Shown in pieces: positions 6,795 to 53,224 of a DNA stretch of 64,000 bases. The first letter of the stretch is position 1, and every line of letters starts with the position of its first letter. The notes below the pieces were generated by a model. The model did not search any database. It was not told where the DNA came from and saw only the letters and a list, made by a program, of their open reading frames with translations. Origin of the DNA: Saccharibacillus kuerlensis DSM 22868 (GTDB lineage: Bacteria > Bacillota > Bacilli > Paenibacillales > Paenibacillaceae); assembly GCF_000378145.1 (NCBI RefSeq), contig NZ_KB899295.1, positions 1-64,000 on the forward strand. The letters run 5' to 3'. The translations under genes and the position numbers were made by a program.

Positions 6795-6823
6795 TTACCG
6801 CAAGTCAGGGAGGAGAGGTTCGC

Positions 6824-8803: not shown

Positions 8804-8810
8804 ATAATCC

Positions 8811-10140: not shown

Positions 10141-10182
10141 TTCCTGCTGCGGTTCCATTGCATAATCGACCATTATACGCGA

Positions 10183-10210
10183 GACCCCCTGAAACTTTCA
10201 GGGGGTCTTT
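10183..10210 (+). terminator. Terminator after the HPr gene
   Basis: GACCCCCTGA (10183-10192) pairs with TCAGGGGGTC (10198-10207), followed by TTTA. Confidence 0.85.
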
Positions 10211-10404
10211 ACGTATGCAGAGGAAGGTGTTTGCGATTCCGCTGCTTTGTGCTCCAATCTGTGTTTAGGAAGCGGGGAGCCAAGGTTAAAAAGGAGTACC
10301 GATACGCTCGCTATGTATGCCCGTCTGTCCGCCTATGGCGTCTGCGGGCTTTCCTCATGAAATCGGAGCAGCGCCATTTAACAGAGGGAAGGGAGCACAA
10401 CAGA

Positions 10405-12513: not shown

Positions 12514-12573
12514 TTCGATTGTTATCTCACCTCTTTATACCGAACGGTTTTCTTCGGCGATTCTGACGTTGTC

Positions 12574-12644
12574 CCGTTCTACAGAAAGCTGTTTCCTTCC
12601 CACTGCGCCAATTGAATTTCGCAGCGGGTCAGGAACGGCTTTTT
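12574..12644 (+). terminator. Possible terminator
   Basis: Nested pairing CCGTTC (12574-12579) with GAACGG (12633-12638), and CTGCG (12603-12607) with CGCAG (12620-12624), then CTTTTTG. The helix is interrupted, so confidence is modest. Confidence 0.45.
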
Positions 12645-12772
12645 GAAGTTTTTCGGCTTAGACCGATACATTTTTGTCCCATTTCTGCGCTTCCAAGAGA
12701 AAGAGGTGCAACCTTTACCGTTCTAATCCCGTTTAGAGGATAATTACAAAAACGTATACAGGAGGGGGAATA

Positions 12773-13525: not shown

Positions 13526-13582
13526 GTGAACTCTCGTTCGCTGCACCGGTACGTTCGGCAGGCGAACGCTGAGGGAACAAAA

Positions 13583-13617
13583 GAAAGCCGTCTTCGCTCC
13601 TAGCGAAGGCGGCTTTC
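13583..13617 (+). terminator. Terminator after the SIMPL gene
   Basis: GAAAGCCGTCTTCGCT pairs with AGCGAAGGCGGCTTTC around a short loop, and TTGCTT follows. Confidence 0.85.
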
Positions 13618-13670
13618 TTGCTTAACTTCATGCTGCACGGGCTTTTTTTGAATAGGAATGAAATGAATAT

Positions 13671-13690
13671 TTTGTCCAAAACGGACATAA
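13671..13690. promoter_or_regulatory. Palindromic operator-like site
   Basis: TGTCC (13673-13677) and GGACA (13683-13687) form an inverted repeat around AAAAC, about 95 bases before the DUF4262 gene. It could overlap a promoter (TAGAAT near 13703-13708). The binding protein is unknown. Confidence 0.35.
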
Positions 13691-13780
13691 GGATGTTTGG
13701 AATAGAATGTAAGGTTTATAAAAGGAGTAAGAAACGAACGTGATTACAAATTCTCCGGAACCGAAAGCGAGGTGATTCCA

Positions 13781-14401
13781 TTGATCGAAACATTGGACAT
13801 TCCTGAAAACCGAAAACAATACTATCAAAGACTTCTGCATGAGAACCCCAGCCGTAATCTGATCGAGCGTTATTCGCTGTTCTGCCAAGAGTATACGGAT
13901 TTCGCCCGCAAAAGACTTTCTTACATTCCCGACCTTATGCATCGGGGATGGGTGCCAATTGTCTTATCGGATGAAGGGATGAATTATGCCTTCACGATCG
14001 GATTGGAATACAGCTTTGGGCATCCCGAGATTCTGATCGCTTCGCCGAGTCGGCCGGCGCGTACGCTGGCGCGTATGATCGAATGGTTCGCTGAACGGGT
14101 CGAAATGGGAGAGCGATTTGAGACCTCTGCCAATTATGCCGAAAAATTGAGACGGCAGCCGGACTTCAGCGATCTTGAAGGAGAAGCGGCGTTTCGTCCG
14201 TATGAAGAGTCGGATGCCGATAATTATCCGTGCGGATATCTCTATTCGTTTTATGGCTATTTTGCCGACCGTAAATTGGAGAACAATAAGCTCCCTATGA
14301 ACATTCTCGAATTGGATTTCCCTATTCGCCCCGCTCCGCCCGGCGGACGCTTGGCAAGTATTATGAGCACATCCAAATGGAATACAGGAGTCAATCTATA
14401 G
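13781..14401 (+). CDS. DUF4262-like protein
   Basis: A 206-residue cytoplasmic protein. The recognisable core reads MNYAFTIGLEYSFGHPEILIASP, typical of DUF4262, a family without an assigned biochemical function. No signal peptide or membrane helix is seen. TTG 13781 is preferred since GAGGTGA (13769-13775) sits 5 bases before it; the upstream GTG lies inside that ribosome binding site. It is flanked by two secreted-protein genes and has an inverted repeat in its promoter region, so it may be individually regulated. Confidence 0.65.
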   Translation: MIETLDIPENRKQYYQRLLHENPSRNLIERYSLFCQEYTDFARKRLSYIPDLMHRGWVPIVLSDEGMNYAFTIGLEYSFGHPEILIASPSRPARTLARMIEWFAERVEMGERFETSANYAEKLRRQPDFSDLEGEAAFRPYEESDADNYPCGYLYSFYGYFADRKLENNKLPMNILELDFPIRPAPPGGRLASIMSTSKWNTGVNL

Positions 14402-14562
14402 ATACCTTAGATTCGAAGTTCGACATTTCTAACAATTTTGTAAAAAACCCTGCAGGGGAATTGCAATGTTGTAATGCTTGCTGTTACCCCTTTCCGCCTC
14501 TGCTTCGGTATACTCACAAAGGGATAGAGGAGAGAACCCAGAGGCGAAGGAGCTGAACGGAT

Positions 14563-15675
14563 ATGAAATTCAAAACAAACAAATTGCATAAAACAACCCA
14601 AATGATGACGGCCGCTGTACTGACGGTGGGGCTGCTGCTGCCGACTGCGGCAGTGCTTGAGACAAATGGGGTTCAAGCTGCAGCCGCAGCGGCAACTACC
14701 CAATCGGCAAAGACCGTAAAAGTGACCTGGAACGGCAAAGTGCTTGGAGTGAATGCTTTTCAAGCCAAAGGAGATACTTATGTACCGGTAAAAGCGCTGG
14801 CGAAGGCTGCAGGTCTGCCTTTGACTTACGATAAAACGACGGGACGGTATACGCTCGGCACATCCCCGAACTCGCTGGTGATGTCGATTTATCGGGGCGG
14901 AGTCTGGATCGGTGCCAATAGCGTAGGACTTCAATCTGAAGGGAAAGTAAAAGGCGGAACGATGTATGTGCCGCTGTCCGTACTGCGCGATTACGCTAGC
15001 ATTGAAAGCAGCTGGAGCGCCAAAACAGGTACAGTTGCGCTGAAGCCGACTGCCGCTGCAGGAGTTACAGTCACTCAGAAATCAATCAAAAGCACGCAAA
15101 AAGATGCGGTCGTCAATATTCGTTATCCGCAGCTGTCCGGCAGCGAAGCCGGTATTGCGAAGATCAACGCGGCACTTAAGAAACATGCGGAAGCCTTTTC
15201 AGCCAATTTTGAAGCACTAATGAAAGAATTCGGTCCACTGCCTAGCGAGAACATGTATTATGAAGCCGATGCCAATTTCATGGTTTCTTATAACAAGGAC
15301 GGACTGTTCAGTGTAGTGATGCAGGATTATTCTTTCTACGGCGGCGCTCATGGCAGTACAATCCAGACCGGTTATACCTTCTCGCTCGACAGCGGCAAGC
15401 AGGTGACGCTCGATCAACTGCTGAAAGGAAATCCGAATTACCGCAGCGACATTGATAAAAAGATTGCCGCAGCGTTCAAAAAGACCGACCTGGCATTTGA
15501 TTCAAACAGCTTTAAGACAATCGGCAGTACTCCTAATTTCTATGTAAGAAACAGCGGCATTACGATCTTTTTCCAACAGTATGAATACACGGCGTATGCA
15601 GCAGGAATTCCATCTTTTGATTTCACATTCACTTCTCTGCTGCCGAAAGGAACCAACCCGTTCGCTGGACTCTAA
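14563..15675 (+). CDS. Secreted stalk-domain protein with DUF4163/DUF3298-like C-terminus
   Basis: A 370-residue exported protein. The signal peptide spans about residues 1-40 (TAAVLTVGLLLPTAAVLETN). The next part, VTWNGKVLGVNAFQAKGDTYVPVKALAKAAG and the following GGTMYVPLSVLRDYA, is a copper-amine-oxidase-N-type stalk domain common in Paenibacillus surface proteins. From about 170 the protein resembles DUF4163/DUF3298 (RsiV-like) with FYGGAHGSTIQTGYTFSLDSGK and the LLKGNPNYRSDIDKKI segment. RsiV-type domains bind lysozyme in Bacillus, but here there is no transmembrane anti-sigma part. The function is inferred only as an extracellular binding protein. Confidence 0.75.
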   Translation: MKFKTNKLHKTTQMMTAAVLTVGLLLPTAAVLETNGVQAAAAAATTQSAKTVKVTWNGKVLGVNAFQAKGDTYVPVKALAKAAGLPLTYDKTTGRYTLGTSPNSLVMSIYRGGVWIGANSVGLQSEGKVKGGTMYVPLSVLRDYASIESSWSAKTGTVALKPTAAAGVTVTQKSIKSTQKDAVVNIRYPQLSGSEAGIAKINAALKKHAEAFSANFEALMKEFGPLPSENMYYEADANFMVSYNKDGLFSVVMQDYSFYGGAHGSTIQTGYTFSLDSGKQVTLDQLLKGNPNYRSDIDKKIAAAFKKTDLAFDSNSFKTIGSTPNFYVRNSGITIFFQQYEYTAYAAGIPSFDFTFTSLLPKGTNPFAGL

Positions 15676-15768
15676 GTGAGATCGGGAAGGCAGTCGTCTA
15701 AAAGTGTACTGAAAGTTCGAGTGTATAGTTGAGAAAGAGTGATAATTGAAAAAGATTGATAATGAATA

Positions 15769-15824
15769 AAGCTCGGAGTTTGAACTCGTGTAGAACGATT
15801 ACGCAGTTTCAACCGAGCTTTTTT
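15769..15824 (+). terminator. Terminator after the stalk-domain gene
   Basis: AAGCTCGG (15769-15776) pairs with CCGAGCTT (15813-15820), followed by TTTT. Additional TTTGAA/TTTCAA pairing extends the helix. Confidence 0.75.
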
Positions 15825-15894
15825 GTATACCCTATTGCAGCCCTTTTCGAAAAAAAATTCAAAATGTAGGGAGAGTCTATTTCAAGTTTGCCAA

Positions 15895-15942
15895 AAGCGA
15901 AAAAGCCGCAGCGGGATAGGAAACTCCTTATCTCGCTGCGGC
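15895..15942 (-). terminator. Terminator of thiC
   Basis: GCCGCAGCGGGATA (15905-15918) pairs with TATCTCGCTGCGGC (15929-15942). On the minus strand the stem is followed by TTTTTCGCTTTT, the correct orientation for thiC. Confidence 0.85.
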
Positions 15943-16041
15943 TGTAATTGGTCTTACCGACTTTACGTAGTGGGTATGTTCAAACAGAGTAAATATTATT
16001 TTCTATTGGTCTTTTTAAGAACTAGTCTTTCTAAGAACCTT

Positions 16042-17902
<1,861 letters not shown>

Positions 17903-17919
17903 GTACACGCAAATAAGAC

Positions 17920-18012
17920 GTCAATCCCTCCGCTGGCATTACCCAGATCAGGTTAAACGGTCGATAGTTGATCACTATCCTCTCAGCCTGGCACACCAAG
18001 CTCCCGCATCTA
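17920..18012 (-). promoter_or_regulatory. TPP (thiamine pyrophosphate) riboswitch
   Basis: On the minus strand the conserved elements appear in order: GGGAGCTTGGTGTGCCAGG, CTGAGAGG, an additional P3a-like helix (GATAGTGATCAACTATC), then ACCTGATCTGGGTAATGCCA and GCGGAGGGA. These are the pyrimidine- and pyrophosphate-sensing cores of the THI element. Boundaries are approximate. Confidence 0.95.
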
Positions 18013-18239
18013 TGTAATTACTGTTTAGTATAACGTACAATATTAATAAATCAATCTCTATTTTTCCAAGCACTGGATTATTTAATCTCCTCAACAAAGG
18101 CGAAAAATCGATGCAGCTGCTGAAGATTTATCTTTTTTCTGTTCCTTTCTTACTTTTGGGGTATGCAGAATCGGTGAAAAGGCTATTATTAATATAGAGA
18201 AAGAATTATAGGATTTTATATAAAAGAGGAGCGTGCATT

Positions 18240-30902: not shown

Positions 30903-30956
30903 AACGCAAAAACTCCCGACTACAAAGGCGCCTTGGGCGCGACTTGTAGTCGGGAG
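30903..30956 (-). terminator. Riboswitch-controlled terminator of pbuE
   Basis: On the minus strand CTCCCGACTACAA (30944-30956) pairs perfectly with TTGTAGTCGGGAG (30913-30925), followed by TTTTTGCGTTTT. The 5' arm lies inside the purine aptamer, including half of P1 and P3, so terminator and aptamer are mutually exclusive. Confidence 0.9.
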
Positions 30957-31007
30957 GTAGGTTCCCGGTAGATACCCTCAAACCGTCTTATTGAGGTATA
31001 CAATGTC
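30941..31007 (-). promoter_or_regulatory. Purine riboswitch, guanine-type, predicted ON switch
   Basis: On the minus strand: P1 GACATTGT/ACAAGTC (one bulged A), P2 CCTCAA/TTGAGG with loop TAAGACGGT, the conserved junction TATCTACC, P3 GGGA/TCCC with loop ACCTACC, and junction GACTAC. Paired GG and CC in the two loops fit the known kissing interaction. The specificity base (position 74 in the B. subtilis xpt numbering) is C, the guanine/hypoxanthine form, whereas B. subtilis pbuE has U (adenine). Ligand binding would hold the 3' arm in P1 and prevent the terminator, so transcription should turn on. Confidence 0.88.
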
Positions 31008-31282
31008 AACTCGTATTACTTTAAAGGATGATTGATGAAAGATCAAGGGGGAAAAATCGGGATTTTTAAAAAATTGGCATCTGCTGAGTCGGTGTTTAAA
31101 TGTAGAGGGGAAATAGGATCTTCTTATAAGGACAATACCCTGCTGCGCGAATTGCCCTTCCGTTTTCCGGTAATGTTCGGCTGCGAGATGGAGATTCCGA
31201 TGTGCGGCCTGTAGAGCGGAGTCGTGGGGGATTGTAGGGGAACTGTAGTGGGGATTTTGAGATGCTTATAGCGCTCGACCTT

Positions 31283-39773: not shown

Positions 39774-40139
39774 GGGGGCGTTTATGGATTCGACGGGGGT
39801 AGTTCGGGCATGGGTAGCGGGTAGTGGGGACGCGGCCGCTTTATCAACGCTAAAGCCTATTAAATGGCAAACAACAAAACAACTACGCTTTCGCAGCCTA
39901 AGAAACTGTGATGCGTGCTCTCGCTCAGCATCGCCTATGTGCTGGGATGAGGGCCCAACCCAATTAGTAGGATACGCCGGCTAGTCTCCGCCTGGGGGTA
40001 GACGGAAGAAGAAAATCAGGCTGACCCGAAGGGAATCCGGTTACGGGGAGATCCTAGGGTGACATCAAAACTGTGACTACACCCGTAGAAGCCTATGCTG
40101 CGTTGCCTTCGGACAGGGGTTCGACTCCCCTCGCCTCCA
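39774..40139 (+). ncRNA. ssrA: tmRNA (SsrA)
   Basis: The 366-base RNA opens with GGGGGCGTTTATGGATTCGAC and closes with GGTTCGACTCCCCTCGCCTCC plus A. GGGGGCG pairs with CGCCTCC as the acceptor stem, and CCA is not encoded. The tag-coding frame starts at GGC 39866 and ends at TAA 39899, encoding GKQQNNYAFAA; with the charged Ala the tag is AGKQQNNYAFAA. The YAFAA end is a typical ClpXP degron. Confidence 0.96.
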
Positions 40140-40153
40140 TATGTAAGACCAGG

Positions 40154-40965: not shown

Positions 40966-42402
40966 ATGAATAAGACATACAATACGGGCGCCATTTTAGC
41001 CTCGCTGCTGATTTGCGGTTTTGTCGGCATGTTCAGCGAGACCGCCTTGAACATAGCCATGACAAATCTGATGGAAGTGTTCCAGATTTCGGCTGCAACC
41101 GCGCAGTGGTTGACGACCGGATTCCTGCTCACTCTCGGCATCTTGATGCCAACAAGCGGACTGCTGCTGCAGATGTTTACAACCAGACAGCTGTTTACCG
41201 GTTCGCTGATCAGCATGATCGCGGGTACATTGGTGGCGGCGCTTGCGATTAATTTTGAAATGCTGATGTTTGCCCGAGTGCTGCAGGCGATTGGTATGGG
41301 ACTGCTGCTGCCGCTTATGTTCAATACCATTCTCGTCATCTATCCGCCGGAAAAACGCGGAGCCGCAATGGGATTTGTTGGACTTGTCATCATGTTTGCA
41401 CCAGCGACGGGCCCAACGGTAGGCGGATTATTGATTCAGTATTTGACCTGGCATTATATCTTCTGGCTCTCGCTGCCGTTTCTGATTATCGGATGGTTGG
41501 TAGGCATGAAGTATTTGGAGAATGTCACCGAAGTTACCAAGCCACGGGTCGACCTGTTGTCCATCGTATTATCGACGCTCGGCTTTGGAGGAATCGTCTT
41601 CGGTTTCAGTAAGGCGGGCGAAGGTTCCGAAGGCTGGGGCAGCACGGTAGTGGTTGCATCGATCATCGTGGGGCTAGTCGCCTTGGTGCTGTTTACGCTG
41701 CGTCAAATTTCTATGAGAGAACCTATGCTGAACCTGAAAGTATTCAAACATCCTATGTACGTTATCGGTCTGCTTCTGGTGCTGTCGTGCATGATGATCA
41801 TTATGTCGAGCATGATCATTCTGCCGATGTTTCTTCAGACAGGCGCAGGGTTGTCCGTATTTGCCACCGGTCTCATTCTTCTGCCGGGCAGTGCGCTGAA
41901 CGGTATTCTTTCGCCGCGAGTGGGACGTTTATTTGATCGATACGGACCAAAATGGTTGGTTGTTCCGGGTCTCGTGGTTGTTACGCTTATGCTGTGGTTC
42001 TTCAGCCACGTATCGCCGGCTTCTTCGGTTGCCTTGATTGTCGCTCTGCACATCGGGCTTATGGTAGGAATCGCCATGATCTGGATGCCTGCCCAAACGA
42101 ACGGGTTGAATCAGCTGCCGCCGGAACTGTATCCGCACGGTACGGCTGTCATGAATACCCTACAGCAGGTGATGGGAGCGATTGGAACGGCGGTCGCAAT
42201 CAGCATTCTGTCTGGCGGAATCGAAAAGTACCTGCACGGCTCCTCGGCGCCTTCCCAGCCGACCGAAATTGCCAATGCAATGACGTCGGGATCGCAGAGC
42301 GTATTCTTGTTCACAATGAGTATCGCACTGGTCGGCGTTGTTATGGCTTTATTCATCCGCCGCGTGCTGGTCAGCCGCGAGACGATGAAATCTATGCATT
42401 AA
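40966..42402 (+). CDS. MFS multidrug exporter, DHA2 (EmrB/QacA) type
   Basis: A 478-residue transporter with about 14 hydrophobic segments. Family features: NIAMTNLMEVFQISAATAQWLTTGFLL in pieces at helix 1-2, the antiporter motif C-like PATGPTVGGLLIQY, and QTNGLNQLPPELYPHGTAVMNTLQQVMGAIG near helix 11-12. Proton-driven export of cationic or lipophilic compounds is the family role. GAGGAG precedes the ATG, and the MarR gene and operator upstream indicate inducible expression. The substrate is unknown. Confidence 0.9.
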   Translation: MNKTYNTGAILASLLICGFVGMFSETALNIAMTNLMEVFQISAATAQWLTTGFLLTLGILMPTSGLLLQMFTTRQLFTGSLISMIAGTLVAALAINFEMLMFARVLQAIGMGLLLPLMFNTILVIYPPEKRGAAMGFVGLVIMFAPATGPTVGGLLIQYLTWHYIFWLSLPFLIIGWLVGMKYLENVTEVTKPRVDLLSIVLSTLGFGGIVFGFSKAGEGSEGWGSTVVVASIIVGLVALVLFTLRQISMREPMLNLKVFKHPMYVIGLLLVLSCMMIIMSSMIILPMFLQTGAGLSVFATGLILLPGSALNGILSPRVGRLFDRYGPKWLVVPGLVVVTLMLWFFSHVSPASSVALIVALHIGLMVGIAMIWMPAQTNGLNQLPPELYPHGTAVMNTLQQVMGAIGTAVAISILSGGIEKYLHGSSAPSQPTEIANAMTSGSQSVFLFTMSIALVGVVMALFIRRVLVSRETMKSMH

Positions 42403-42737: not shown

Positions 42738-43898
42738 ATGACTGATAAATTCCAACTCGTAGGCAGCTTGCTTCGTCCCGAAGACCTGCTGAAATATAAG
42801 ACGCAAATCGAGCACCGCGACGACATCCAGTATCCGTTCTATCAGGAGTTCGAAGGTTATCAGCAGTGTGAAGCAAAAGCGATCGAATCGGTCGTCCAAG
42901 ACCAAATCCAGCATGATCTCTCGGTCATCACAGACGGCGAGTATTCCAAGTCGATGTGGCATCTGGACTTTGTCTGGGGCTTCCAGGGGATCGAGCGCTA
43001 TATCGCAGATCACGGCTACTTCTTCCGCGATGTCGACGGCACGTCCAAATACGAGACGCGCAAAGACATTGGGCTGCGTATCACAGGCGAGCTGGGCGGC
43101 AAAAACCATCATTTCCTCGAGTCCTTCAAGCAGCTGAAAGATAGTGCCGGCGAACGCGAGACGAAGCTGTGCGTACCTTCTCCGTCGCATATTTTTGGAG
43201 AGCTGTCGTGGTCGGATAATATCGGTGGCAAAGACTCTGTCTATAAGGATGCAAAAGAACTCAAAGCCGGTCTCGTTAAAGCGTACAAAGAATTCGTTCA
43301 GGACTTCGCGGATGCCGGCGGGAAAATCCTTCAATTCGACGACTGCCTGTGGGAGCTGTTTGCGGACGACAATCCGAACTCTCCGTACACCGGCGAGAAC
43401 ATCGATCAGGAGCAGGTACAGGCACTGGCGGCCGAGTTTATCGACATCAACAACACGATCATTGACTTCGGTCACGAGCTGGGTCTGAAAATGTGGACAC
43501 ACAACTGCCGCGGCAACTACGATTCCCGGAACATGGGCGGCGGTTCGTATGCGAAGATCGCGAATCTGTTCCTGAAGCAGCTCAAATACGACCGCTTCTT
43601 CCTGGAGTGGGACGACGAGCGTGCCGGTTCGCTGGAAGCGCTGGAAGTGTTCAAAGACAAGCCGAACACGGAGATCGTCCTTGGTCTGCTGTCGTCGAAG
43701 ACGAATACGCTGGACGACGAAGAGCGTGTACTGCGTCTGCTGGACGAAGCGTCGAACATCATCGAAAAAGATCGTCTGCTGCTGTCCCACCAATGCGGCT
43801 TCGCTTCCTGCGACGGCGGGAATGAGCTGACTCAAGCGGAGCAATGGGCCAAGATCGAACAGGGTAAAAAAATCGCGCAGCAGTATTGGGCGAAATAA
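42738..43898 (+). CDS. Cobalamin-independent methionine synthase C-terminal-like protein (YxjG/YxjH type)
   Basis: A 386-residue single-module homologue of the MetE catalytic domain. Seen: FQLVGSLLRPEDLLKYK at the start, VITDGEYSKSMWHLDFVWG, QFDDCLWELF, and metal-site segments MWTHNCRGN and LSHQCGFASCDGGNELT. In Bacillus the YxjG/YxjH proteins are linked to methionine salvage and sit behind SAM riboswitches; no S-box was seen here. The methyl donor is not known. A possible extended -10 (TGC TACAAT, 42660-42668) lies upstream and AAGGGGG precedes the ATG. Confidence 0.85.
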   Translation: MTDKFQLVGSLLRPEDLLKYKTQIEHRDDIQYPFYQEFEGYQQCEAKAIESVVQDQIQHDLSVITDGEYSKSMWHLDFVWGFQGIERYIADHGYFFRDVDGTSKYETRKDIGLRITGELGGKNHHFLESFKQLKDSAGERETKLCVPSPSHIFGELSWSDNIGGKDSVYKDAKELKAGLVKAYKEFVQDFADAGGKILQFDDCLWELFADDNPNSPYTGENIDQEQVQALAAEFIDINNTIIDFGHELGLKMWTHNCRGNYDSRNMGGGSYAKIANLFLKQLKYDRFFLEWDDERAGSLEALEVFKDKPNTEIVLGLLSSKTNTLDDEERVLRLLDEASNIIEKDRLLLSHQCGFASCDGGNELTQAEQWAKIEQGKKIAQQYWAK

Positions 43899-44289: not shown

Positions 44290-44475
44290 ATGGAAAAACA
44301 CAGTTTGGAAATGAGCAATCTGGAAATGAACAGTCCAGTAGGCGGTGTGTTGTCTGAATTGACAGACACTGAGATGGAAACTGTAGCCGGCGGAGCTACT
44401 GCGCAAGGTTTTACAGATGGAAACTGTTTGAAGAGTATCACAGCTGACTGCACTCCGTGGCTGGGACTCTGCTAA
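44290..44475 (+). CDS. Class II lanthipeptide precursor (LanA)
   Basis: A 61-residue peptide. The leader (about 35 residues) ends LTDTEMETVAGG, the double-glycine form cut by C39-peptidase transporters. The predicted 26-residue core starts ATAQGFTDGNC and ends ADCTPWLGLC, with Thr2, Thr7, Ser14, Thr16, Thr20 and Cys11, Cys19, Cys26. The segment SITADC resembles the lacticin-481/nukacin ring motif (T-x-S-x-E/D-C). Plausible rings are Thr7-Cys11, Ser14-Cys19 and Thr20-Cys26, leaving Thr2 and Thr16 as possible dehydrobutyrines. ATG 44290 has AAAGGAGG 8 bases upstream. A hairpin and then lanM follow. Confidence 0.9.
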   Translation: MEKHSLEMSNLEMNSPVGGVLSELTDTEMETVAGGATAQGFTDGNCLKSITADCTPWLGLC

Positions 44476-44552
44476 GAGTAAGTAAAGTAATGAACAAAGA
44501 TTTTGAATGCATACTTATCGTTATAAAAAGGTTATAAATTCAGTAATTCCCC

Positions 44553-44630
44553 AAAGGGCATATACGGATATTCGATCAGTCTAGTAAAGGCTGCCTTCAA
44601 ATATACCGCTTCATATGCCCTTTCTTCTTA
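44553..44630 (+). terminator. Attenuating terminator between the precursor gene and lanM
   Basis: AAAGGGCATAT (44553-44563) pairs perfectly with ATATGCCCTTT (44613-44623), followed by CTTCTT. The weak tail suits partial read-through, giving precursor excess over the synthetase. Confidence 0.7.
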
Positions 44631-44704
44631 ATTGGAAATGAATAGGGCTCGACGTATGCACATGTTGGAGAACCATTTATATAAATCGAGAGGTTGGGAC
44701 GACA

Positions 44705-47700
44705 GTGATCGATATATATGAAAAAACACACTACTGGAAGAAATTTTTTTATGATAAAGAAGAATATCTGCGAAGAAGCCTTGCCGAAGTTTCAGACATC
44801 AAAATTGATAACGTTTTGGAAGTCAAAGAAAAAGATATGAATTGGAAAGTGCAATGGGAAGAGCTGCTGAATCGAAATCCAGAAAATTCATTTTCCGCAA
44901 AAAAACCTTCATTTGTCGGATTTATTGAACGCTTTTTAATAATAGCTAAAGATTTACTGGGGAAAAAGGAGCTTATCCAGTCTACACATTTTAATTTGAA
45001 TGAAAATTTCTTCAACACCTTGTTTCTTTCCTTGAGCAACAAAATCATTGGAATGAGTTACAAGGTTCTTATTCAGGAAGTGAATATTTTGAGAGATCAA
45101 GGGCTGCTTCTTGGTGAAACTTCAGAAAAAAGATATGAATATTTTGAAAGCCTGCTTTATAGCAAAGAGTATTTAACCCAATTAACCGACAAGTATCCCG
45201 TATTGATTCGTTCGTTGATTCAAGTGACCCGGAAATGGACGATTCATGTTAGCGAAGTCTTAAACAGATTTGAAAACGATTATCCAAAAATTCTTTTACA
45301 TATGCCTGAAGTCCAACAGTTCGGTAAAGTTGTTCATATCCATATCGGTGCAGGAGATACGCATGATGGACGAAGCGTAACGATTTTGGAGTTTGCTGAT
45401 GGGGATCGATTGGTTTACAAACCCCGCTCGTTACAAGTCGATACAGGTTACTATCGAATGATGTCATGGATGTTTGAAAAAGGGATTCCCGTCATGAAAG
45501 TCGTAAAAAATATAGATTGTGGAGATTACGGCTGGACGGAATTCGTCAAGTTTGAAGAGTGTAAAAGTGAGCAGGAAGTGAAACTTTTTTATTACGGTAT
45601 GGGCGTACAGTTGGCCATGATGTACGTATTCAATGCTACTGACTTTCATTACGAAAATATTATTGCGCATGGCGGCAGTCCGGTTTTAATCGATCTGGAA
45701 TCTTTATTTCATTCTCCCATAAGCACAAAAACGTTTGAGAAAGACGCTAATGGCCATGCTTATGAAATTCTTTCAAACTCCGTAATGTCTTCCGGAATGC
45801 TGCCGCAGTACGCCTATAAAACCGAAACACATTCAGGATTGGACGTAAGCGGCATTTTTGGGCATGGAGGAAAAAAGGTTCCTAATGCAATAGGTGTTAT
45901 TAATAGGGGAACGGACTTAATGAGGTTGGAAAAAGGGAACGGAGAAACAGAAAAAACTCAAAATCTTCCGCACTATCAAGGAGAAGTAGTAGACAGCTAC
46001 AAACATATTGAAGAGATAGAAAAAGGCTTTGTTCAAGCATATAAAATTATTGCAGAAAATAAAGTAGAGGTAGAGAGCATGATTCGGCAATTTGCTTCTG
46101 TCAGAGTTCGAGTCATTGTAAGGGATACCCGAGCATATGGAGAATTAATGCGTACATTATGTCACCCGGATTTATTGCAAAATGAATTGGATCGAAAAAT
46201 TGTTTTACATAGACTATGGCTTCCTTGTCTGGCCAATTCTAAGTATCTAAGGCTGGTTTCTCACGAAATGCGGGATATCGAAGAAGGTGACATTCCGATT
46301 TTTTACACTTATCCGGCTGAAAAAGATATTTGGTCTTCCGATCATAAAAAAATTCCTTGTATGTTTGATGAATCGGGACTGAATGTTGCCATCAAAAAAA
46401 TCAGAAAGATGGACGATCGAGATTTAAAGGAACAGTTGCAAGTTCTGCATATGTCTATTTTGGCGTCTAACCCTCATCTTTATAAACCATTCATTGTGAA
46501 AGCGCGTCCGAAAGATTCTACCGACACTTTGCAGTTTGACTGGAGGAAAGAGTATGTTCGTTTAGCCGTTTCGATCGGAGAAAATATGCTTCAAACCGCT
46601 ATCACCTCTCGGAATTCCATAAACGACGATGCGACGTGGATCGGTTTGATAGGAGGACATAATGAAAGGCAGCTTAGGCTCGTTCCGGTAGGATACGATT
46701 TATATGACGGGAACAGCGGAATCGCGTTGTTTTTTGCCTATTTAGCCGAATTGACCGCAGAAGACAAGTATAAAGACATGGCTTTAAAAGTATTGAGACC
46801 GTTGATCGAGATCATGAAAGAGAAACAAAGCAAGGAAAAGGTTCGAAGCATCGGAGCTTTTGATACAGGCACAATTGGCGGAGGCGTATTTGCTGTATAC
46901 CATTTAGCTCGTCTATGGGGAGAAGAGTCACTGCTCCAAGTGGTCAAACAATATCTTCCGTATTATTGCGACCTTGTCGAGCAAGATACCGTTTTCGATT
47001 ACATAGGCGGTTCAGCTGGAGCGATTGATATCCTTCTGCATCTATATCGGGGCACGGGATGGATCGAGGCTTTAAAAGGAGCGGAGAAGTGCGCGGAGCA
47101 TTTGCTTGAAAACGTACGAATAATGTCAGACGGCAGCATGGCATGGTCGGCTCAACCTGATCAAATGCCTTATGTCGGGTATTCACATGGCGTTTCCGGA
47201 ATTATTGCCGCTTTGTCGTCGCTGTATCGTGAAACCCGAAATGAAAAGTACATCCCGTATATAGCAAAAGGACTTCAATATGAGCGGGCAAATTACGATG
47301 AAGAACTTAAAAACTGGATGACTCCCGGCGATACGGCCAGAGTGACCTGGTGTCACGGAGCTCCTGGAGTGCTATTAGCGCGTTTACGCTTGATAAAAAA
47401 CGGATATTGGGATTCGGAAATTGATAAAGAAATCGAGTGCGCTCTTGAAACTACGATTCGGTCGGGATTTAGTGGAGACCCCCTTTATTGTCATGGAGAT
47501 TTTGGGCAATTGGAAATCTTGCTTTTTGCGAATACCGTTCTTGAACGGGATGTTTTCTCTGATCGGATTGATGCTGTTAGAATGCGGCTGTTAGAACTGC
47601 TAAAAGATCAGCCGTGGACCGCAGTGGGCGCTCATCGCGCTTTCGATCGAAAAGGGTTGATGGCTGGGTTGGCAGGCGTAGGATTCGGCCTTTTAAAACA

Positions 47701-47773
47701 GGCTTTTCCGGATAAAGTTGCCAACATTTTAAGTTTGGATAACGACGATTTTCTCGCTGCAAATTCCGGATAA
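44705..47773 (+). CDS. lanM: Class II lanthipeptide synthetase LanM
   Basis: A 1022-residue bifunctional enzyme. It dehydrates Ser/Thr of the precursor and then forms (methyl)lanthionine rings with Cys. The dehydratase half (DUF4135) shows HIGAGDTHDGRSVTILEF, DRLVYKPRSLQVD, and the kinase-like NATDFHYENIIAHGG with PVLIDLESLFH. The C-terminal LanC-like cyclase has GYSHGVSGIIAAL, the zinc ligand Cys883 in TWCHGAPG, and Cys929-His930 in YCHGDFGQLE. All catalytic elements are present. The start is GTG 44705, with GAGGTT about 9 bases upstream. It is AT-rich relative to flanking genes. Confidence 0.93.
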   Translation: MIDIYEKTHYWKKFFYDKEEYLRRSLAEVSDIKIDNVLEVKEKDMNWKVQWEELLNRNPENSFSAKKPSFVGFIERFLIIAKDLLGKKELIQSTHFNLNENFFNTLFLSLSNKIIGMSYKVLIQEVNILRDQGLLLGETSEKRYEYFESLLYSKEYLTQLTDKYPVLIRSLIQVTRKWTIHVSEVLNRFENDYPKILLHMPEVQQFGKVVHIHIGAGDTHDGRSVTILEFADGDRLVYKPRSLQVDTGYYRMMSWMFEKGIPVMKVVKNIDCGDYGWTEFVKFEECKSEQEVKLFYYGMGVQLAMMYVFNATDFHYENIIAHGGSPVLIDLESLFHSPISTKTFEKDANGHAYEILSNSVMSSGMLPQYAYKTETHSGLDVSGIFGHGGKKVPNAIGVINRGTDLMRLEKGNGETEKTQNLPHYQGEVVDSYKHIEEIEKGFVQAYKIIAENKVEVESMIRQFASVRVRVIVRDTRAYGELMRTLCHPDLLQNELDRKIVLHRLWLPCLANSKYLRLVSHEMRDIEEGDIPIFYTYPAEKDIWSSDHKKIPCMFDESGLNVAIKKIRKMDDRDLKEQLQVLHMSILASNPHLYKPFIVKARPKDSTDTLQFDWRKEYVRLAVSIGENMLQTAITSRNSINDDATWIGLIGGHNERQLRLVPVGYDLYDGNSGIALFFAYLAELTAEDKYKDMALKVLRPLIEIMKEKQSKEKVRSIGAFDTGTIGGGVFAVYHLARLWGEESLLQVVKQYLPYYCDLVEQDTVFDYIGGSAGAIDILLHLYRGTGWIEALKGAEKCAEHLLENVRIMSDGSMAWSAQPDQMPYVGYSHGVSGIIAALSSLYRETRNEKYIPYIAKGLQYERANYDEELKNWMTPGDTARVTWCHGAPGVLLARLRLIKNGYWDSEIDKEIECALETTIRSGFSGDPLYCHGDFGQLEILLFANTVLERDVFSDRIDAVRMRLLELLKDQPWTAVGAHRAFDRKGLMAGLAGVGFGLLKQAFPDKVANILSLDNDDFLAANSG

Positions 47774-47804
47774 CCTGTGTGATCTGAGGAAGGGAGAGCA
47801 TGCA

Positions 47805-49937
47805 ATGGGAAGACGGGTACCTTATATTGAACAAATGCATCAATCAGAATGCGGAATTTGCTGCGTGGCCATGATATCGGCGTATTATCGAAAAGAAGTT
47901 TCTTTATACGATTTACGCGAACGATTGGATGTCGGAAGAGACGGAACAACGTTGTTGCAATTAAAAAAGGCATCAGAAACACTGGGATTTGAGGTTAAAG
48001 CTTATCGGATTGAGCATATGGACCAATTGAGAGAGCTTTCTTTGCCCGCAATTTTGCATTGGAACCATTCGCATTTTGTCGTTTTGGAAAAGGTGAAGAA
48101 AAATTCAGTTTGTATTGTCGATCCGCGATTCGGTCGAATCCAATTGTCATTGAAAAAATTTAGTGAAAATTTTAGCGGTACCACAATGACTATGTTTCCA
48201 ACGGAAAAAGTCATCCCTGAAAGAACAAGCAATGTTTGGTTGTTTTTTTTGAATTATATCAAGCCGCTCAAACGGATATTCTTTTATATTTTTTTGATTA
48301 CGATCATTTTGCAAATCCTAGTCGTAGCCATGCCTTTAATGATGCAGCAGATTATCGACCGTATTGTAACTCCGCAGCATGCAAATTTACCCGCGACAGT
48401 TTTAATATCAATCACCGGATTTTTAATGATATATATAACGGTCACTTTTATACGTAGTCGCGTTCTGGTGAAGTTGAATAATGCGCTGGATTACTCTATG
48501 CAAACTCACTTTTTCTCGCACCTATTGAAATTGCCTTTTTCGTTCTTTTTGTTGCGGTCGTACGGAGACCTAATTTTTCGAATGAACAGTTTGGTTACCG
48601 TTCGAAATCAGATTTCAGACGTATTAATTAGAGGTATATTAGACGGAATTATGCTGTTTGTATTGTCAGGTTATATGTTATTTGTATCTCCGACGCTCGC
48701 AACCATCGTATTATTGCTAGTTAGCTTAAATATTTTCCTTATTTTATTTACCAAAAGATTTATAGCGGAAATTAATCAGCAGCAGGTAGTGACTATGACG
48801 GAAGTACAATCTGCAAATACCGAGATGCTGTATGGGATGGTGGGCGTAAAAACAGCTGGCATAGAAACACAGGTCTACTTGCAATGGCGAGAGAAATTTA
48901 ACCGATTGCTTCAGATCTATCGGCGCAAAGAAAACTTGAACAGTTATATTACGTCAGTCGGCAGTGGCCTCCAATTTATGTCACCTCTTGTCGTCTTGAC
49001 TATCGGCATGTTGATGATGACAAATGGGTATGGGGCTATGACGCTTGGCACAGTGGTCTCGTTCCAAGCTATTGCAACGCTATTTTTCGTTACGTCGTCG
49101 AGCTGTGTGAACGGAATTAATTCATACATTCTTACAACTTCTGTATTAAAAAGGGTATACGATGTTTTAGAAGCGCCAACCGAGAAAAATAATGGAAGAT
49201 TGCAGGTGAAAATCCGCGGAGAAATTAATTTGTCGAATGTTAGCTTTTCTTATACACGGTTTAGCCCGAAAGTAATCGACGGCGTTTCACTGCATATTCG
49301 ACCCGGACAAAAAATTGCTGTTATCGGGCAGTCGGGTTCTGGTAAGACGACCTTGGCTCATTTGATCGTAGGTTTGTTTGAACCGACTTCAGGGGAAGTG
49401 CGATACGATGGTCATGAAGCTTCTGAGTTGGATATGCCATATATACGCAAACAGATGGGTATCGTACCGCAGGATATCACGTTGTTCAACCGCAGCATTT
49501 ACGATAATATTGTTCTTCATAAAGAAGACGTAACGGCGGAGCAAGTCGTGGAAGCTGCAAAAGCAGCAAATATCCATGAGGAAATTATGGCGATGCCTAT
49601 GCAATATCAAACGATGATCGCTGAAATGGGAAGAAACATTTCAGGCGGTCAAAGGCAGAGGATTGCACTGGCCAAGGCTTTGCTCAATCATCCTACCGTA
49701 CTTGTAATGGATGAAGCTACAAGCGCCTTGGATTATATAAGTGAAGAGAAGGTAGATACTTATTTGTCACGTATTAACTGTACACGAATTGTAATTGCCC
49801 ATCGCCTGACGACAGTGATGAACAGCGACAAGATTATTGTTTTGGAAAACGGGAAAATTCGTGATGTCGGAAGCCACCCTCAATTATTGCAAAGCTCCAG
49901 CTATTATCGGCATTACTATAAAGAACTGAGTTCATAA
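47805..49937 (+). CDS. lanT: Lanthipeptide ABC transporter with C39 leader peptidase (LanT)
   Basis: A 710-residue exporter that removes double-glycine leaders while translocating the peptide. The N-terminal C39 peptidase has Cys16 in MHQSECGICC, His in NHSHFVVL and Asp in IVDPRFG. A six-helix membrane domain spans about 150-440. The nucleotide-binding domain carries Walker A GQSGSGKTT, signature NISGGQRQRIALA, Walker B VLVMDEATSAL and the H-loop IVIAHRLTT. Its gene is 31 bases behind lanM with AAGGGAGAG as ribosome binding site. It matches the GG leader of the precursor. Confidence 0.93.
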   Translation: MGRRVPYIEQMHQSECGICCVAMISAYYRKEVSLYDLRERLDVGRDGTTLLQLKKASETLGFEVKAYRIEHMDQLRELSLPAILHWNHSHFVVLEKVKKNSVCIVDPRFGRIQLSLKKFSENFSGTTMTMFPTEKVIPERTSNVWLFFLNYIKPLKRIFFYIFLITIILQILVVAMPLMMQQIIDRIVTPQHANLPATVLISITGFLMIYITVTFIRSRVLVKLNNALDYSMQTHFFSHLLKLPFSFFLLRSYGDLIFRMNSLVTVRNQISDVLIRGILDGIMLFVLSGYMLFVSPTLATIVLLLVSLNIFLILFTKRFIAEINQQQVVTMTEVQSANTEMLYGMVGVKTAGIETQVYLQWREKFNRLLQIYRRKENLNSYITSVGSGLQFMSPLVVLTIGMLMMTNGYGAMTLGTVVSFQAIATLFFVTSSSCVNGINSYILTTSVLKRVYDVLEAPTEKNNGRLQVKIRGEINLSNVSFSYTRFSPKVIDGVSLHIRPGQKIAVIGQSGSGKTTLAHLIVGLFEPTSGEVRYDGHEASELDMPYIRKQMGIVPQDITLFNRSIYDNIVLHKEDVTAEQVVEAAKAANIHEEIMAMPMQYQTMIAEMGRNISGGQRQRIALAKALLNHPTVLVMDEATSALDYISEEKVDTYLSRINCTRIVIAHRLTTVMNSDKIIVLENGKIRDVGSHPQLLQSSSYYRHYYKELSS

Positions 49938-50000
49938 ATTCTATGGAGACCATACTTTATTGAGAAAGCCAATAAAAGTGGTTGTAGAGGAGGAAGCGAC

Positions 50001-50951
50001 TTGAACACGATATTGTCGGTGCAGCATTTGACCAAAAAAATCAAAGGCAAAACTATCGTAAACGATGTGTCTTTCGACGTTTTGGCTGGAGAGATCGTTG
50101 GACTGCTCGGCGCAAATGGCGCAGGTAAAACGACCACTATGAAGATGATTGTGGGATTGAGCAAAATCAGTTCCGGAGATGTCAAGATTGCTGGACGCAG
50201 TATGAAAACTGAGTTTTCCAAAGCTCTTGACGATCTTGGTGCAGTGATCGAAGCGCCTGCTTTTTACCCTTACCTGAGTGGGTATGAGAACTTGCGTCAA
50301 TATCAGCGTTTGCACAAAAAAGCATCTAAAGATTGGTTGTTGGAAGTCGCGAGTCTCGTCGGGATCGACCATGCATTGAAGCAGCGGGTAGGTACTTATT
50401 CGCTTGGGATGAAACAGCGTTTGGGAATTGCGCAGGCACTGCTCAAAAAGCCAAAGCTGCTTGTGCTGGATGAACCGATGAACGGCCTGGATCCTGCAGG
50501 CGTGCGAGAAACACGAACGTATCTGAACCAGATTGCGGACGAGCTAGGAGTATCGGTCGTAATCTCCAGTCATCAACTGGCTGAGATTGAGCAAATGGCC
50601 GGCCGTGTGATCGTGATCCAGCAGGGGTGTCTAATAGCCGAGCAGCAAATTGGAGACGAGGCAGGCAGCAGTGTTCTTCAGCTCACGCTTCATGTCAATG
50701 ACGCTGAACGAGCTGGAAAGGCCTTAACTGAATTTTCAGGAGGCATTCATCGTTCTTTGAAGAGCAAGCAGGCAGAACAACTGCCTGGCGGATTGTATGC
50801 AATTGCTATTACGCTTGAAGAAGAACAGGTTCCGAAGCTGATTCGATCTTTATGCGAAGCCGGAGTAGATATTCATCGAGTGCTTCCCGCCCATACGAGT
50901 CTGGAAGACAAATTTTTGGAATGGACAACTAAACGTGGTGAGGTGAGTTGA
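50001..50951 (+). CDS. ABC transporter ATP-binding protein (LanF/BcrA-like)
   Basis: A 316-residue ATPase with Walker A LLGANGAGKTTTMKM, signature YSLGMKQRLGIA and Walker B LLVLDEPMNGLDPAG. The C-terminal extension (about 225-316) is typical of the BcrA/LanF group that protects producers from peptide antibiotics. The start is TTG 50001 after GAGGAGG. It lies 63 bases after lanT and is coupled to the permease gene. Its base composition is closer to the chromosome than lanAMT, so it may be a resident gene next to the locus. An immunity role is inferred from position. Confidence 0.82.
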   Translation: MNTILSVQHLTKKIKGKTIVNDVSFDVLAGEIVGLLGANGAGKTTTMKMIVGLSKISSGDVKIAGRSMKTEFSKALDDLGAVIEAPAFYPYLSGYENLRQYQRLHKKASKDWLLEVASLVGIDHALKQRVGTYSLGMKQRLGIAQALLKKPKLLVLDEPMNGLDPAGVRETRTYLNQIADELGVSVVISSHQLAEIEQMAGRVIVIQQGCLIAEQQIGDEAGSSVLQLTLHVNDAERAGKALTEFSGGIHRSLKSKQAEQLPGGLYAIAITLEEEQVPKLIRSLCEAGVDIHRVLPAHTSLEDKFLEWTTKRGEVS

Positions 50952-50952
50952 A

Positions 50953-51690
50953 TTGATATGGAATGAATGGCTGAAGATTGTGAATAAAAAATTCTTTGTG
51001 TTATCGTTGATTGGTCTTACAGGCGCAGCACTTGTGTTGTCAGGGTCATATTCTCAGGGGGCTGCGATCGACATCACCAGATTTCAAATGATGGATGGAA
51101 TGATTGGAGCCCTGGGCATGCTGGTTGTCGTCCCTTGGGCGATTGTCGTTTCCCCATCCATTTGGACGGATGAGTATCAATATGGAACCTTAAAACAGCT
51201 GTTTTTACATAGTTCCTCACGTTCAAAACTGTATGCCGGCAAAGCGGCTGCGATGGTGCTGCTTATTATCACTGGTGTTTGCTGCGTAGCTTTTGCCGCC
51301 CTGCTTTCGTTTTTAGTGATGGGGGGCCCTGACATGTCGTGGGGAAAACCGTCGGTGGCTGTATATTCGTCAGCGGCGCTTATGTGGCAGTGTTTTCTTT
51401 ATGCAGGTCTTGCCTCTTTGATCGGCGTTTGGACGAGATCGGCAGCAATTGGAGTCGGAGGCGGTCTCGTGCTCTATTTTATGCAGTTGATCTTTGGCGG
51501 CAGTCTCGTTTCGGTCTCTTGGACTCACCTTTTATTCATTCATCACGATGATTTAAGTCTGTATTGGCGTGACCCGCAATACGCAGTGCAAATGCCCGGC
51601 GTGACCGGGTCCCTGGTCGTGGATGCCGTTTATATGCTGCTGTTCTTCGCGATCGGGCTGTGGTTATTCGCCAAAGAAAGGTCGGATTAG
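50953..51690 (+). CDS. ABC-2 type permease (LanE-like)
   Basis: A 245-residue membrane protein with six hydrophobic segments. Features include NEWLKIVNKKFFVLSLIG at the N-terminus, WTDEYQYGTLKQLFLHSSSRSKLYAGK (the conserved ABC-2 cytoplasmic loop, quoted in part by family) and a final LLFFAIGLWLFAKER. It begins one base after the ATPase stop, with its ribosome binding site AGGTGAG inside the ATPase gene, so the two are translated together. Only one permease is present, where LanFEG systems have two; it may act as a homodimer. Confidence 0.8.
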   Translation: MIWNEWLKIVNKKFFVLSLIGLTGAALVLSGSYSQGAAIDITRFQMMDGMIGALGMLVVVPWAIVVSPSIWTDEYQYGTLKQLFLHSSSRSKLYAGKAAAMVLLIITGVCCVAFAALLSFLVMGGPDMSWGKPSVAVYSSAALMWQCFLYAGLASLIGVWTRSAAIGVGGGLVLYFMQLIFGGSLVSVSWTHLLFIHHDDLSLYWRDPQYAVQMPGVTGSLVVDAVYMLLFFAIGLWLFAKERSD

Positions 51691-51818: not shown

Positions 51819-51958
51819 TTTCATAGAATTGTCCTTTATGGCATCAACTTTGCCTACGTTCCCCGTATCCCCTATAATAAAAACTTGTCCTGCACAGCTT
51901 CATATCCAACTTGTCGTATTCATTTATGCTACATGGATTTAATTGCAAGGAGGAACTC

Positions 51959-53224
51959 ATGAACTTTATCCGTAATCAACTCGAAAATGCAGGCATGACT
52001 GATCCGATGACCTTCTACATCTCGAACGTCATTATGATCCTGTTTATCGCGCTGCTCTGTATTCTCGCCAATTTGATCACCAAAAAAGTTGTGCTCAACG
52101 CTGTCATTCGGATTGTCAAAAGCAACCGCTACCACTGGGACGATATCATCGTGGAGAAAAGGGTATTCCACAAGCTGTCGCATCTCGTTCCGGCAATCAT
52201 CATTTATTTATTCGCGCCCGTATTTCCGGTCTATCAGTCGCTAATCGAGAAGCTGTCCGCCGCCTATATGATTTTGGCCACGATTGTAGTGCTGAACGCG
52301 TTGATGGATGCTTTCGAAGCCATTTACCGTTCGTTTGAGATCTCCAAGATTCGCCCGATCAAGGGATACATTCAGGTCATGAAGATCGTGCTGTTCATCA
52401 TCGGCGGCATCGTCTTAATCTCTAGTCTGATCGGCCAAAATCCTCTGATCATTCTCAGCGGTCTCGGCGCCCTGTCGGCGGTACTTATGCTCATTTTCAA
52501 AGATTCCATCCTCGGCCTGGTAGCAGGCATACAGCTCTCTTCCAACGATATGGTGCGCGTGGGCGACTGGATTGAAATGCCGAATTACAATGCGGACGGC
52601 GACGTCATCGACATCACGCTCAATACGGTCAAAGTCATGAACTTCGACAAAACAATCACGATGATCCCAAGTTACGCGCTCATTTCGGATTCGTTCCGTA
52701 ATTGGAGAAGCATGCAGCTGTCCGGCGGCAGACGGATCAAACGGAGTATCCGGATCGATACGAGCAGCATTGGTTTTTGTACAGATGAGATGATTGAAGA
52801 GTTCAAGAAAATACATTATCTGTCCGACTACCTCACCAACCGGTTGACCGAGATCGAAGAATATAATTTGAAGCACAATATCAACCGGGAGAGCAGAGTC
52901 AACGGTCGTCAGCTGACGAACGTTGGCGTATTCCGGGAATATATTCGCCAGTATTTGACCCATCATCCCGGCATTCACCAGGACATGACGCTGATCGTGA
53001 GACAGCTGGCGCCGGAAGAAACCGGTCTGCCGCTGGAAATCTATGCGTTCAGCAGCGACACGTCTTGGGTGGCGTACGAATCGCTGCAGGCAGATATTTT
53101 CGACCATATCTTCGCTGTGGCTCCGACGTTCGGACTGCGTATTTTCCAGAATCCGACGGGATATGACATTGCTCGGCTAAAAGAAAGCGCGGCAGCTGCA
53201 GGTGTCGAGGCGGAGAACGTTTGA
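51959..53224 (+). CDS. MscS-family mechanosensitive channel, YbdG-like
   Basis: A 421-residue membrane protein. It has five hydrophobic segments in the first about 190 residues, then the MscS pore/beta domain: NPLIILSGLGALSAVLMLIFKDSILGLVAGIQL (described in overlapping parts), SNDMVRVGDWIEMP and VKVMNFDKTITMIPSYALI. The long C-terminal domain with QLSGGRRIKRSIRID and TGLPLEIYAFS matches the YbdG branch, involved in mild hypo-osmotic response. ATG 51959 follows AAGGAGGA at 6 bases. Confidence 0.88.
   Translation: MNFIRNQLENAGMTDPMTFYISNVIMILFIALLCILANLITKKVVLNAVIRIVKSNRYHWDDIIVEKRVFHKLSHLVPAIIIYLFAPVFPVYQSLIEKLSAAYMILATIVVLNALMDAFEAIYRSFEISKIRPIKGYIQVMKIVLFIIGGIVLISSLIGQNPLIILSGLGALSAVLMLIFKDSILGLVAGIQLSSNDMVRVGDWIEMPNYNADGDVIDITLNTVKVMNFDKTITMIPSYALISDSFRNWRSMQLSGGRRIKRSIRIDTSSIGFCTDEMIEEFKKIHYLSDYLTNRLTEIEEYNLKHNINRESRVNGRQLTNVGVFREYIRQYLTHHPGIHQDMTLIVRQLAPEETGLPLEIYAFSSDTSWVAYESLQADIFDHIFAVAPTFGLRIFQNPTGYDIARLKESAAAAGVEAENV

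Follow-up and report, generated by a model that had tools for sequence, protein, structure and literature searches.

An intact class II lanthipeptide cassette between conserved genes

The stretch of DNA analyzed here, hereafter the window, comprises the first 64,000 nucleotides of contig NZ_KB899295.1 from Saccharibacillus kuerlensis DSM 22868. At positions 44290-51690 it holds five genes in the order lanA-lanM-lanT-lanF-lanE, all on the plus strand (Table 1), and all five frames are open in the list of open reading frames (ORFs). A sequence-only reading of the same DNA had named a 61-residue precursor with a GG leader, a LanM, a LanT with a C39 peptidase domain, and a pair of ATP-binding cassette (ABC) genes, and every one of these was found at the position assigned to it. 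We think it highly probable that these genes together make up a full class II lanthipeptide cassette, one apparently acquired horizontally, and its product would most likely be a globular binder of lipid II with the rings Thr7-Cys11, Ser14-Cys19, and Thr16-Cys26.

LanM scored 937 bits against TIGR03897 (cut-off 304) and matched the Pfam models DUF4135 and LANC_like. A profile of six LanM sequences, from the window and five relatives with Bacillus mojavensis left out, was aligned to the structures of LicM2 (6st5) and CylM (5dzt). The phosphorylation residues of CylM, Asp347, His349, Asn352, Asp364, and Lys274, correspond to Asp313, His315, Asn318, Asp330, and Lys239 of the window LanM, and the elimination residues Asp252 and His254 to Asp218 and His220, with the further elimination residues Arg506 and Thr512 outside the mapping (PMC4550811; this and the other papers given by accession are cited for single passages of their text). 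The CylM zinc ligands Cys875, Cys911, and His912 (PMC4550811) fall on Cys883, Cys929, and His930. All seven mapped dehydratase residues and the three zinc ligands are invariant in the six aligned LanMs; the zinc ligands picked out by the sequence-only reading were correct. LanT carries the Pfam domains Peptidase_C39, ABC_membrane, and ABC_tran; the bacteriocin transporter 4ry2 matches it over residues 8-707, and Cys16, His90, and Asp106, assigned from the C39 motif, are its candidate catalytic residues. LanF matches Pfam ABC_tran, and its best NCBIfam model is the lantibiotic protection ATPase TIGR03740 (E 4.7e-62), albeit at 209.6 bits, below the cut-off of 309.75. LanE matches ABC2_membrane_4 (PF12730); a homologue follows lanF in Paenibacillus sp. 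DMB20 and in genome G149, and one is assigned in B. mojavensis RO-H-1 by position and from PMC3951391. A LanM with both domains and the kept residues, next to it a short precursor with a GG leader and a core of Ser, Thr, and Cys, and a bifunctional C39-LanT place the system in class II.

The lanA product consists of the leader MEKHSLEMSNLEMNSPVGGVLSELTDTEMETVAGG and the core ATAQGFTDGNCLKSITADCTPWLGLC, the latter of 26 residues with Cys at positions 11, 19, and 26, and a good ribosome-binding site (gaaaggaggtgaaaaaaATG) lies 5′ of the gene. When the small ORFs of the window (35-110 amino acids) were filtered for a GG leader and a Cys-containing core, lanA alone passed out of 421; it was likewise the sole match to the precursor profile in its own genome at E<=0.01. 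No Pfam model matched the precursor at E 0.01, and seven NCBIfam models matched at E 0.1, none above its cut-off. The best of these, the plantaricin C family (NF000539), reached 24.5 bits against a cut-off of 29 over residues 9-41, which are mostly leader. The mersacidin/lichenicidin family (TIGR03898) gave 13.8 bits against 23.5 and the lacticin 481 family (NF040664) 13.2 against 46. Membership in the lacticin 481 family was rejected on the latter score; the HEC-x9-TCC pattern of that family is also absent, and the window core ends in GLC.

The methionine-synthase-like gene that flanks the cassette on the 5′ side (42738-43898) is present in all 16 genomes of the genus, the MscS-type channel gene on the 3′ side (51911-53224) in 14 of 16, its own included (G008 and G009 gave no match to the channel gene), and lanA in one. 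Junctions were fetched from nine of the 15 other genus genomes, picked for the closest spacing of the flanking genes, and in all nine both flanks align while the cassette DNA does not. The aligned flank ends lie 147-551 bases apart in seven of these genomes and 951 and 1615 bases apart in the remaining two, versus about 8.05 kb in the window; in G002, G004, G007, and G015, which are outside the nine junctions compared, the flanking genes are ~3.9 to 4.6 kb apart by coordinates. The cassette is inserted between conserved neighbors. Its guanine plus cytosine (GC) content, in 1-kb steps, is 34.5-48.7%, with 49-53% just upstream, where the contrast is clear, and 46-52% just downstream. Horizontal transfer is the apparent source.

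Table 1. Coordinates of the cassette, its neighboring RNA elements, and the lone C39 genes of three relatives
Feature	Position	Strand	Description and basis
lanA	44290-44475	+	61-amino-acid (aa) precursor; ORF and sequence; homologous precursor 5′ of lanM in six relatives
lanA, leader	44290-44394	+	35 aa, ends AGG
lanA, core	44395-44472	+	26 aa
lanA, stop	44473-44475	+	
Intergenic RNA hairpin	44553-44623	+	Between lanA and lanM; folding (minimum free energy, z-score)
lanM	44705-47773	+	Class II lanthipeptide synthetase, 1022 aa, GTG start
lanT	47805-49937	+	C39 peptidase and ABC exporter, 710 aa
lanF	50001-50951	+	ABC ATPase, 316 aa, TTG start as listed; probable self-protection
lanE	50953-51690	+	ABC-2 permease, 245 aa; probable self-protection
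Terminator-like stem-loop	51788-51815		3′ of cassette; consensus scan only
Lone C39 gene, Paenibacillus sp. JJ-100	10095-10532 (of its stretch)		3′ of lanM, type B
Lone C39 gene, P. daejeonensis	10103-10540 (of its stretch)		3′ of lanM, type B
Lone C39 gene, P. albidus	10104-10511 (of its stretch)		3′ of lanM, type B

Relatives of the cassette and their two core types

A LanM match at E 1e-30 was found in 54 of 394 genomes of the taxonomic family, its own included. Five of these LanMs, besides that of the window, are 61-65% identical to it, and the next in the family sample stand at 34-35%. Scanning a contig collection with the alignment of six LanMs returned 54 loci (a single LanM sequence gave 19 pattern matches and no relatives) and added B. 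mojavensis RO-H-1, with a LanM of 64% identity. The close relatives are thus Paenibacillus sp. DMB20, Paenibacillus sp. JJ-100, P. daejeonensis, P. albidus, G149, and B. mojavensis RO-H-1, and each has a precursor gene 5′ of lanM. Ureibacillus aquaedulcis is the next outward (39%); its stretch 5986-12703 holds this LanM, an alpha-like precursor ending in CTFTAECQRSCN, and a further protein of 1017 aa, a putative second LanM.

A single-sequence precursor search matched 4 of 392 genomes of the order, its own included but DMB20 and P. daejeonensis not, a count that is either a lower bound or reflects a sample without those two genomes; the precursor profile matched in all six genomes probed, these two among them. 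In the class sample the profile matched 6 of 398, its own included, and the other five were weak (E 5.6e-6 to 9.8e-4). The PVG..GG segment of the leader is identical at 18-20 of 20 positions in all pairs among eight precursors, and over these 20 codons the pairs with the window gave a nonsynonymous divergence (dN) of 0.02-0.05 and a synonymous divergence (dS) of 1.1-1.4 where computable.

The lipid II motif of class II peptides has been written as (C)TXS/TXD/EC (PMC3918158) and as TxTxEC (PMC7268733), and loosening TX[S/T]X[D/E]C gives the relaxed pattern [ST]x[ST]x[DE]C. The cores fall into two types. Type A comprises the window core, that of B. mojavensis (AQALGFTDGNCLTTITADCTPWLWGC, in two identical copies), that of G149 (AQAQGFTDGNCVSTITADCTPGWTWVC), and that of DMB20 (VQAQGFTDGNCLKTVTSDCWWICGA); the motif reads SITADC in the window, with Ser for the first Thr, TITADC in B. 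mojavensis and G149, and TVTSDC in DMB20. In the type B cores of P. albidus (DYPHLPSLTKNCSIWTIISGCSW), JJ-100 (DYPHLPSLTKNCSIFTILSGCSW), and P. daejeonensis (NFPHRPSLTKNCTIWTLLSGCSW) it reads SLTKNC, Asn replacing the Asp or Glu of the lipid II motif at all three loci.

The loci differ also in the genes behind lanM. Full LanT, LanF, and LanE are present in the window and, by tblastn, in DMB20 and G149, and those of B. mojavensis were taken from its ORFs and from PMC3951391. At the three type B loci tblastn recovered LanT no further than its first 144-150 residues, which there make up a gene of their own (listed at 135, 158, and 169 aa), and in these stretches of 15-16 kb it found no LanE and LanF only as distant ABC similarity (24-32%). 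The lone C39 genes gave pairwise dN/dS values of 0.18, 0.20, and 0.25 over 130 codons (a simple NG86 estimate), and that of P. albidus, the one of the three run, scored 138.8 bits against Pfam C39, a degree of constraint and fit unlike that of debris. Since the Ureibacillus LanT is full length (715 aa), truncation is probably the derived state. The type B loci group together both in the LanM tree (94/100) and in the C39 tree (95/94); type A is not shown as a clade, and the position of the window is not settled by these trees.

One may tentatively read this as a family split into two chemotypes by coupled changes, although we hold it to be a speculative reading that rests on three type B loci. 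Type A would combine an acidic motif with an exporter and LanFE, and type B an Asn core with a free C39 protease and no LanFE; the stand-alone protease would mature the type B peptide inside the cell, and the target of that peptide would no longer be lipid II. Provided that the motif has been interpreted correctly, the Asn should make type B a poor lipid II binder, and this would fit the missing LanFE. Against such retargeting, the part that the Glu plays in binding has been described as unclear, and lichenicidin alpha in simulations made no contact with lipid II through this residue (PMC9863751); moreover, an ABC/FtsX pair that could protect the producer lies near the lan genes at two of the three type B loci. 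A literature search for a standalone C39 peptidase with a lanthipeptide found nothing, and the main text of PMC8960859 contains neither "C39" nor "standalone"; neither result is proof of absence.

The surroundings of the relatives are varied. The pair just mentioned, a large FtsX-type permease (Pfam) and an ABC ATPase (by eye), is encoded on the minus strand near the lan genes of P. daejeonensis (609-3792 of its stretch) and P. albidus (10831-14029), was not seen near those of JJ-100, and is possibly a substitute for self-protection. Acyltransferase genes (Pfam) also lie near the lan genes of P. daejeonensis (region 13212-16158, together with thioesterase and class III aminotransferase genes by Pfam) and P. 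albidus (4752-5924), which is suggestive of polyketide or peptide synthesis. The JJ-100 genes sit behind a DNA methylase gene (Pfam) and small phage-like genes (1092-5291; one was run and had no Pfam match), perhaps at the edge of a prophage. The B. mojavensis cluster is bracketed by transposase-like ORFs, at 5141-5575 (Pfam DDE_Tnp_IS240) and 14638-15434 (by eye), which is consistent with mobility.

A long hairpin can be folded between lanA and lanM at all seven loci, with minimum free energies (MFE) of -27.1 to -40.7 kcal/mol. That of the window has an MFE of -27.1 kcal/mol and, for a selected 81-nucleotide piece, a z-score of -5.6; the four pieces scored ranged from -5.3 to -7.4, values inflated by the selection of the pieces for holding the hairpin. 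By eye, some arm pairs in the MFE structures change from locus to locus in a compensating way: one position is C-G in type A and U-A in type B, and A-U pairs of the window stand in place of the G-C found at most other loci. Against the hairpin, the whole 175-nucleotide gap in the window gave a z-score of only -1.17, a stability also reached by 24 of 200 shuffles, and the automatic consensus alignment misregistered the arms and yielded a weak, slightly unfavorable covariation term, so the case relies on single-sequence folds. Among the pieces a T-rich stretch follows the stem in the window only, which makes a plain terminator unlikely at the other loci. The hairpin may stabilize lanA mRNA or limit read-through into lanM, and may favor expression of lanA over lanM. 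Rfam returned nothing within the cassette at the gathering score, and the terminator scan of the region gave six sites versus 6.7 expected in shuffles. Elsewhere in the window lie an ordinary transfer-messenger RNA (39774-40142, plus strand), thiamine pyrophosphate riboswitch (17908-18017, minus strand), and purine riboswitch (30927-31024, minus strand), and a major facilitator superfamily efflux gene (40966-42402) whose best NCBIfam model is Lmr(B), at 656.7 bits below the cut-off of 800.

Rings and target of the predicted peptide

By homology, LanM would phosphorylate and eliminate Ser and Thr residues of the core and close the thioether rings, LanT would cleave after GG and export the peptide, and LanFE would protect the producer. 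The residues Thr7, Cys11, Ser/Thr14, Thr16, Asp18, and Cys19 are kept in all four type A cores, and the third Cys lies at position 23 to 27. The rings Thr7-Cys11 and Ser14-Cys19 proposed in the sequence-only reading agree with these conserved residues, and its third ring, Thr20-Cys26, does not fare as well. In its favor, Thr20 is present in three of the four type A cores (window, B. mojavensis, and G149), and a small ring at the C terminus poses little steric difficulty. The DMB20 core (...KTVTSDCWWICGA), however, has Trp at position 20 and retains its third Cys with no Ser or Thr between the second and third Cys; its last Cys can therefore reach only Thr7, Thr14, Thr16, or Ser17, the last being Ala in the other three type A cores. 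Once rings 7-11 and 14-19 are closed, Thr16 is the only invariant donor that remains. In bovicin-type peptides, two dehydratable Thr serve the near Cys13 and the C-terminal Cys (PMC4018250), and by our reading these are the Thr residues of TLTKDC, the second serving the C-terminal Cys. Because of the DMB20 pattern, the invariance of Thr16, and this precedent, we infer a third ring Thr16-Cys26, interlocked with Ser14-Cys19, and clearly prefer it; Thr20 was rejected as the donor, and the same cassette making three rings that do not interlock appears rather unlikely. The same ring crossing occurs in mersacidin, actagardine, and lacticin 481. The product of the preferred map would join the mersacidin/lacticin 481/bovicin motif group, with Thr20 present as dehydrobutyrine or unmodified. 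The linear core has a calculated monoisotopic mass of 2685.22, which three, four, or five dehydrations would lower to 2631.19, 2613.18, or 2595.17.

A peptide of this kind is predicted to block cell wall synthesis in Gram-positive competitors, and the earlier proposal of an antibacterial, lipid II-directed class II lanthipeptide is backed by the enzymes, the motif, and the gene order. The segment SITADC, which had been called lacticin-481-like, is present as described but is equally mersacidin-like, the motif being common to both subgroups (PMC3918158); when the core was shuffled 200000 times, the relaxed pattern turned up in 1351 of the results. Replacing the motif Glu with Ala abolished activity in mersacidin, actagardine, lacticin 3147 alpha, and haloduracin alpha, as did Gln in haloduracin alpha (PMC2706954, PMC3918158), and in bovicin-type peptides Asp is natural at the acidic position (PMC4018250).

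Several observations weigh against the reading as a whole. The window core begins its motif with Ser, where the other type A cores have Thr. Its acidic residue is Asp, and a Glu to Asp change left lacticin 3147 alpha with low activity (PMC3918158). The plantaricin C, mersacidin, and lacticin 481 models all stay below cut-off for the precursor, no regulator and only one permease were seen within the cassette, and the GC contrast is weak on the downstream side.

That the product is instead a signal or another non-antibacterial peptide we regard as improbable: we met no activity data for any member of the family, and the type B relatives have Asn where lipid II binders have Glu or Asp, yet the acidic residue is kept in all four type A cores and a LanF/LanE pair follows lanT at the type A loci. 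Still less probable is that the peptide is the alpha-like half of a two-peptide lantibiotic whose partner lies elsewhere or was lost. The Ureibacillus locus, with its precursor ending in GYFCTFTAECQRSCN and its putative second LanM, means that the window lineage may descend from two-peptide systems; against this, the window's own genome has one LANC_like match and one precursor-profile match, on which grounds a two-peptide system there was rejected, and the filtered small ORFs of the other type A loci include no second kind of precursor, just the identical duplicate in B. mojavensis. A silent or decaying cluster, for which one might cite the missing regulator and a promoter scan of the region with 10 sites versus 17.7 in shuffles, is just as improbable given five open frames, kept catalytic residues, and a constrained leader segment.

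Known systems and meaning for the family

The nearest described system is the cluster of B. mojavensis RO-H-1, known from a 2014 in silico study by Singh and Sareen (PMC3951391) and made up of two identical precursors together with LanM, LanT, LanF, and LanE. Gene order is the same and its core is identical to that of the window at 20 of 26 positions; the tandem lanA copies and the upstream transposase-like ORF (DDE_Tnp_IS240) set it apart. The family was therefore already known, and the suggestion of a possibly new core holds for the exact peptide and not for the family. None of the genome, plasmid, and literature searches made turned up the exact core; the plasmid search with the precursor returned one match, at E 0.1 and beneath an unrelated gene, and the strings GFTDGNC, QGFTDGN, KSITADC, and NPVGSVLSELTD were absent from the papers searched, mostly open literature. 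We met no report of a B. mojavensis RO-H-1 product in the literature on B. mojavensis lanthipeptides and Paenibacillus class II lanthipeptides, in which few subscription journals were covered. A survey of Paenibacillus lanthipeptides by Baindara et al. (2020, J Appl Microbiol), cited in later papers, may list some of these loci.

Plantaricin C (core via PMC6107846), whose NCBIfam model is the best for the precursor, shares a Cys shortly before the central T/S-x-T-x-E/D-C motif and, with the relative G149, the letters TWVC near the end; it differs in having four core Cys versus three and a Lys-rich N terminus that the window core lacks. Pediococcus claussenii ATCC BAA-344, said to carry a plantaricin C equivalent (PMC6107846), has a plasmid LanM only 26% identical. 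Plasmid pPmC-142-5 of Priestia megaterium encodes a "plantaricin C family lantibiotic" precursor, likened by annotation, followed by a LanM (36.7%) and an ABC transporter with a peptidase domain, but regulatory genes (accessory gene regulator B, LytTR) adjoin it. The mersacidin and lacticin 481 subgroups share the lipid II motif (PMC3918158), relaxed in the window by Ser for the first Thr; the window lacks their Cys directly before the motif and their C-terminal Cys-Cys, in addition to missing the TIGR03898 and NF040664 cut-offs. The bovicin HJ50 group has TLTKDC, a motif similar to the SLTKNC of type B and the TITADC of type A, and two dehydratable Thr that feed both thioether rings, but bovicin-type peptides have a disulfide and four Cys, versus three Cys in type A and two in type B (PMC4018250).

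Characterizing a member would give the lantibiotics of the lipid II type a further, compact scaffold of three rings and would fix the ring map of a family met from genomes alone. The most interesting by-product of the analysis is the split between types A and B, which offers a natural test of the interdependence of the acidic motif residue, the exporter, and the immunity genes. At the position where Ala, or Gln in haloduracin alpha, abolished activity in the relatives tested (PMC3918158, PMC2706954), Asn occurs naturally in three type B peptides.

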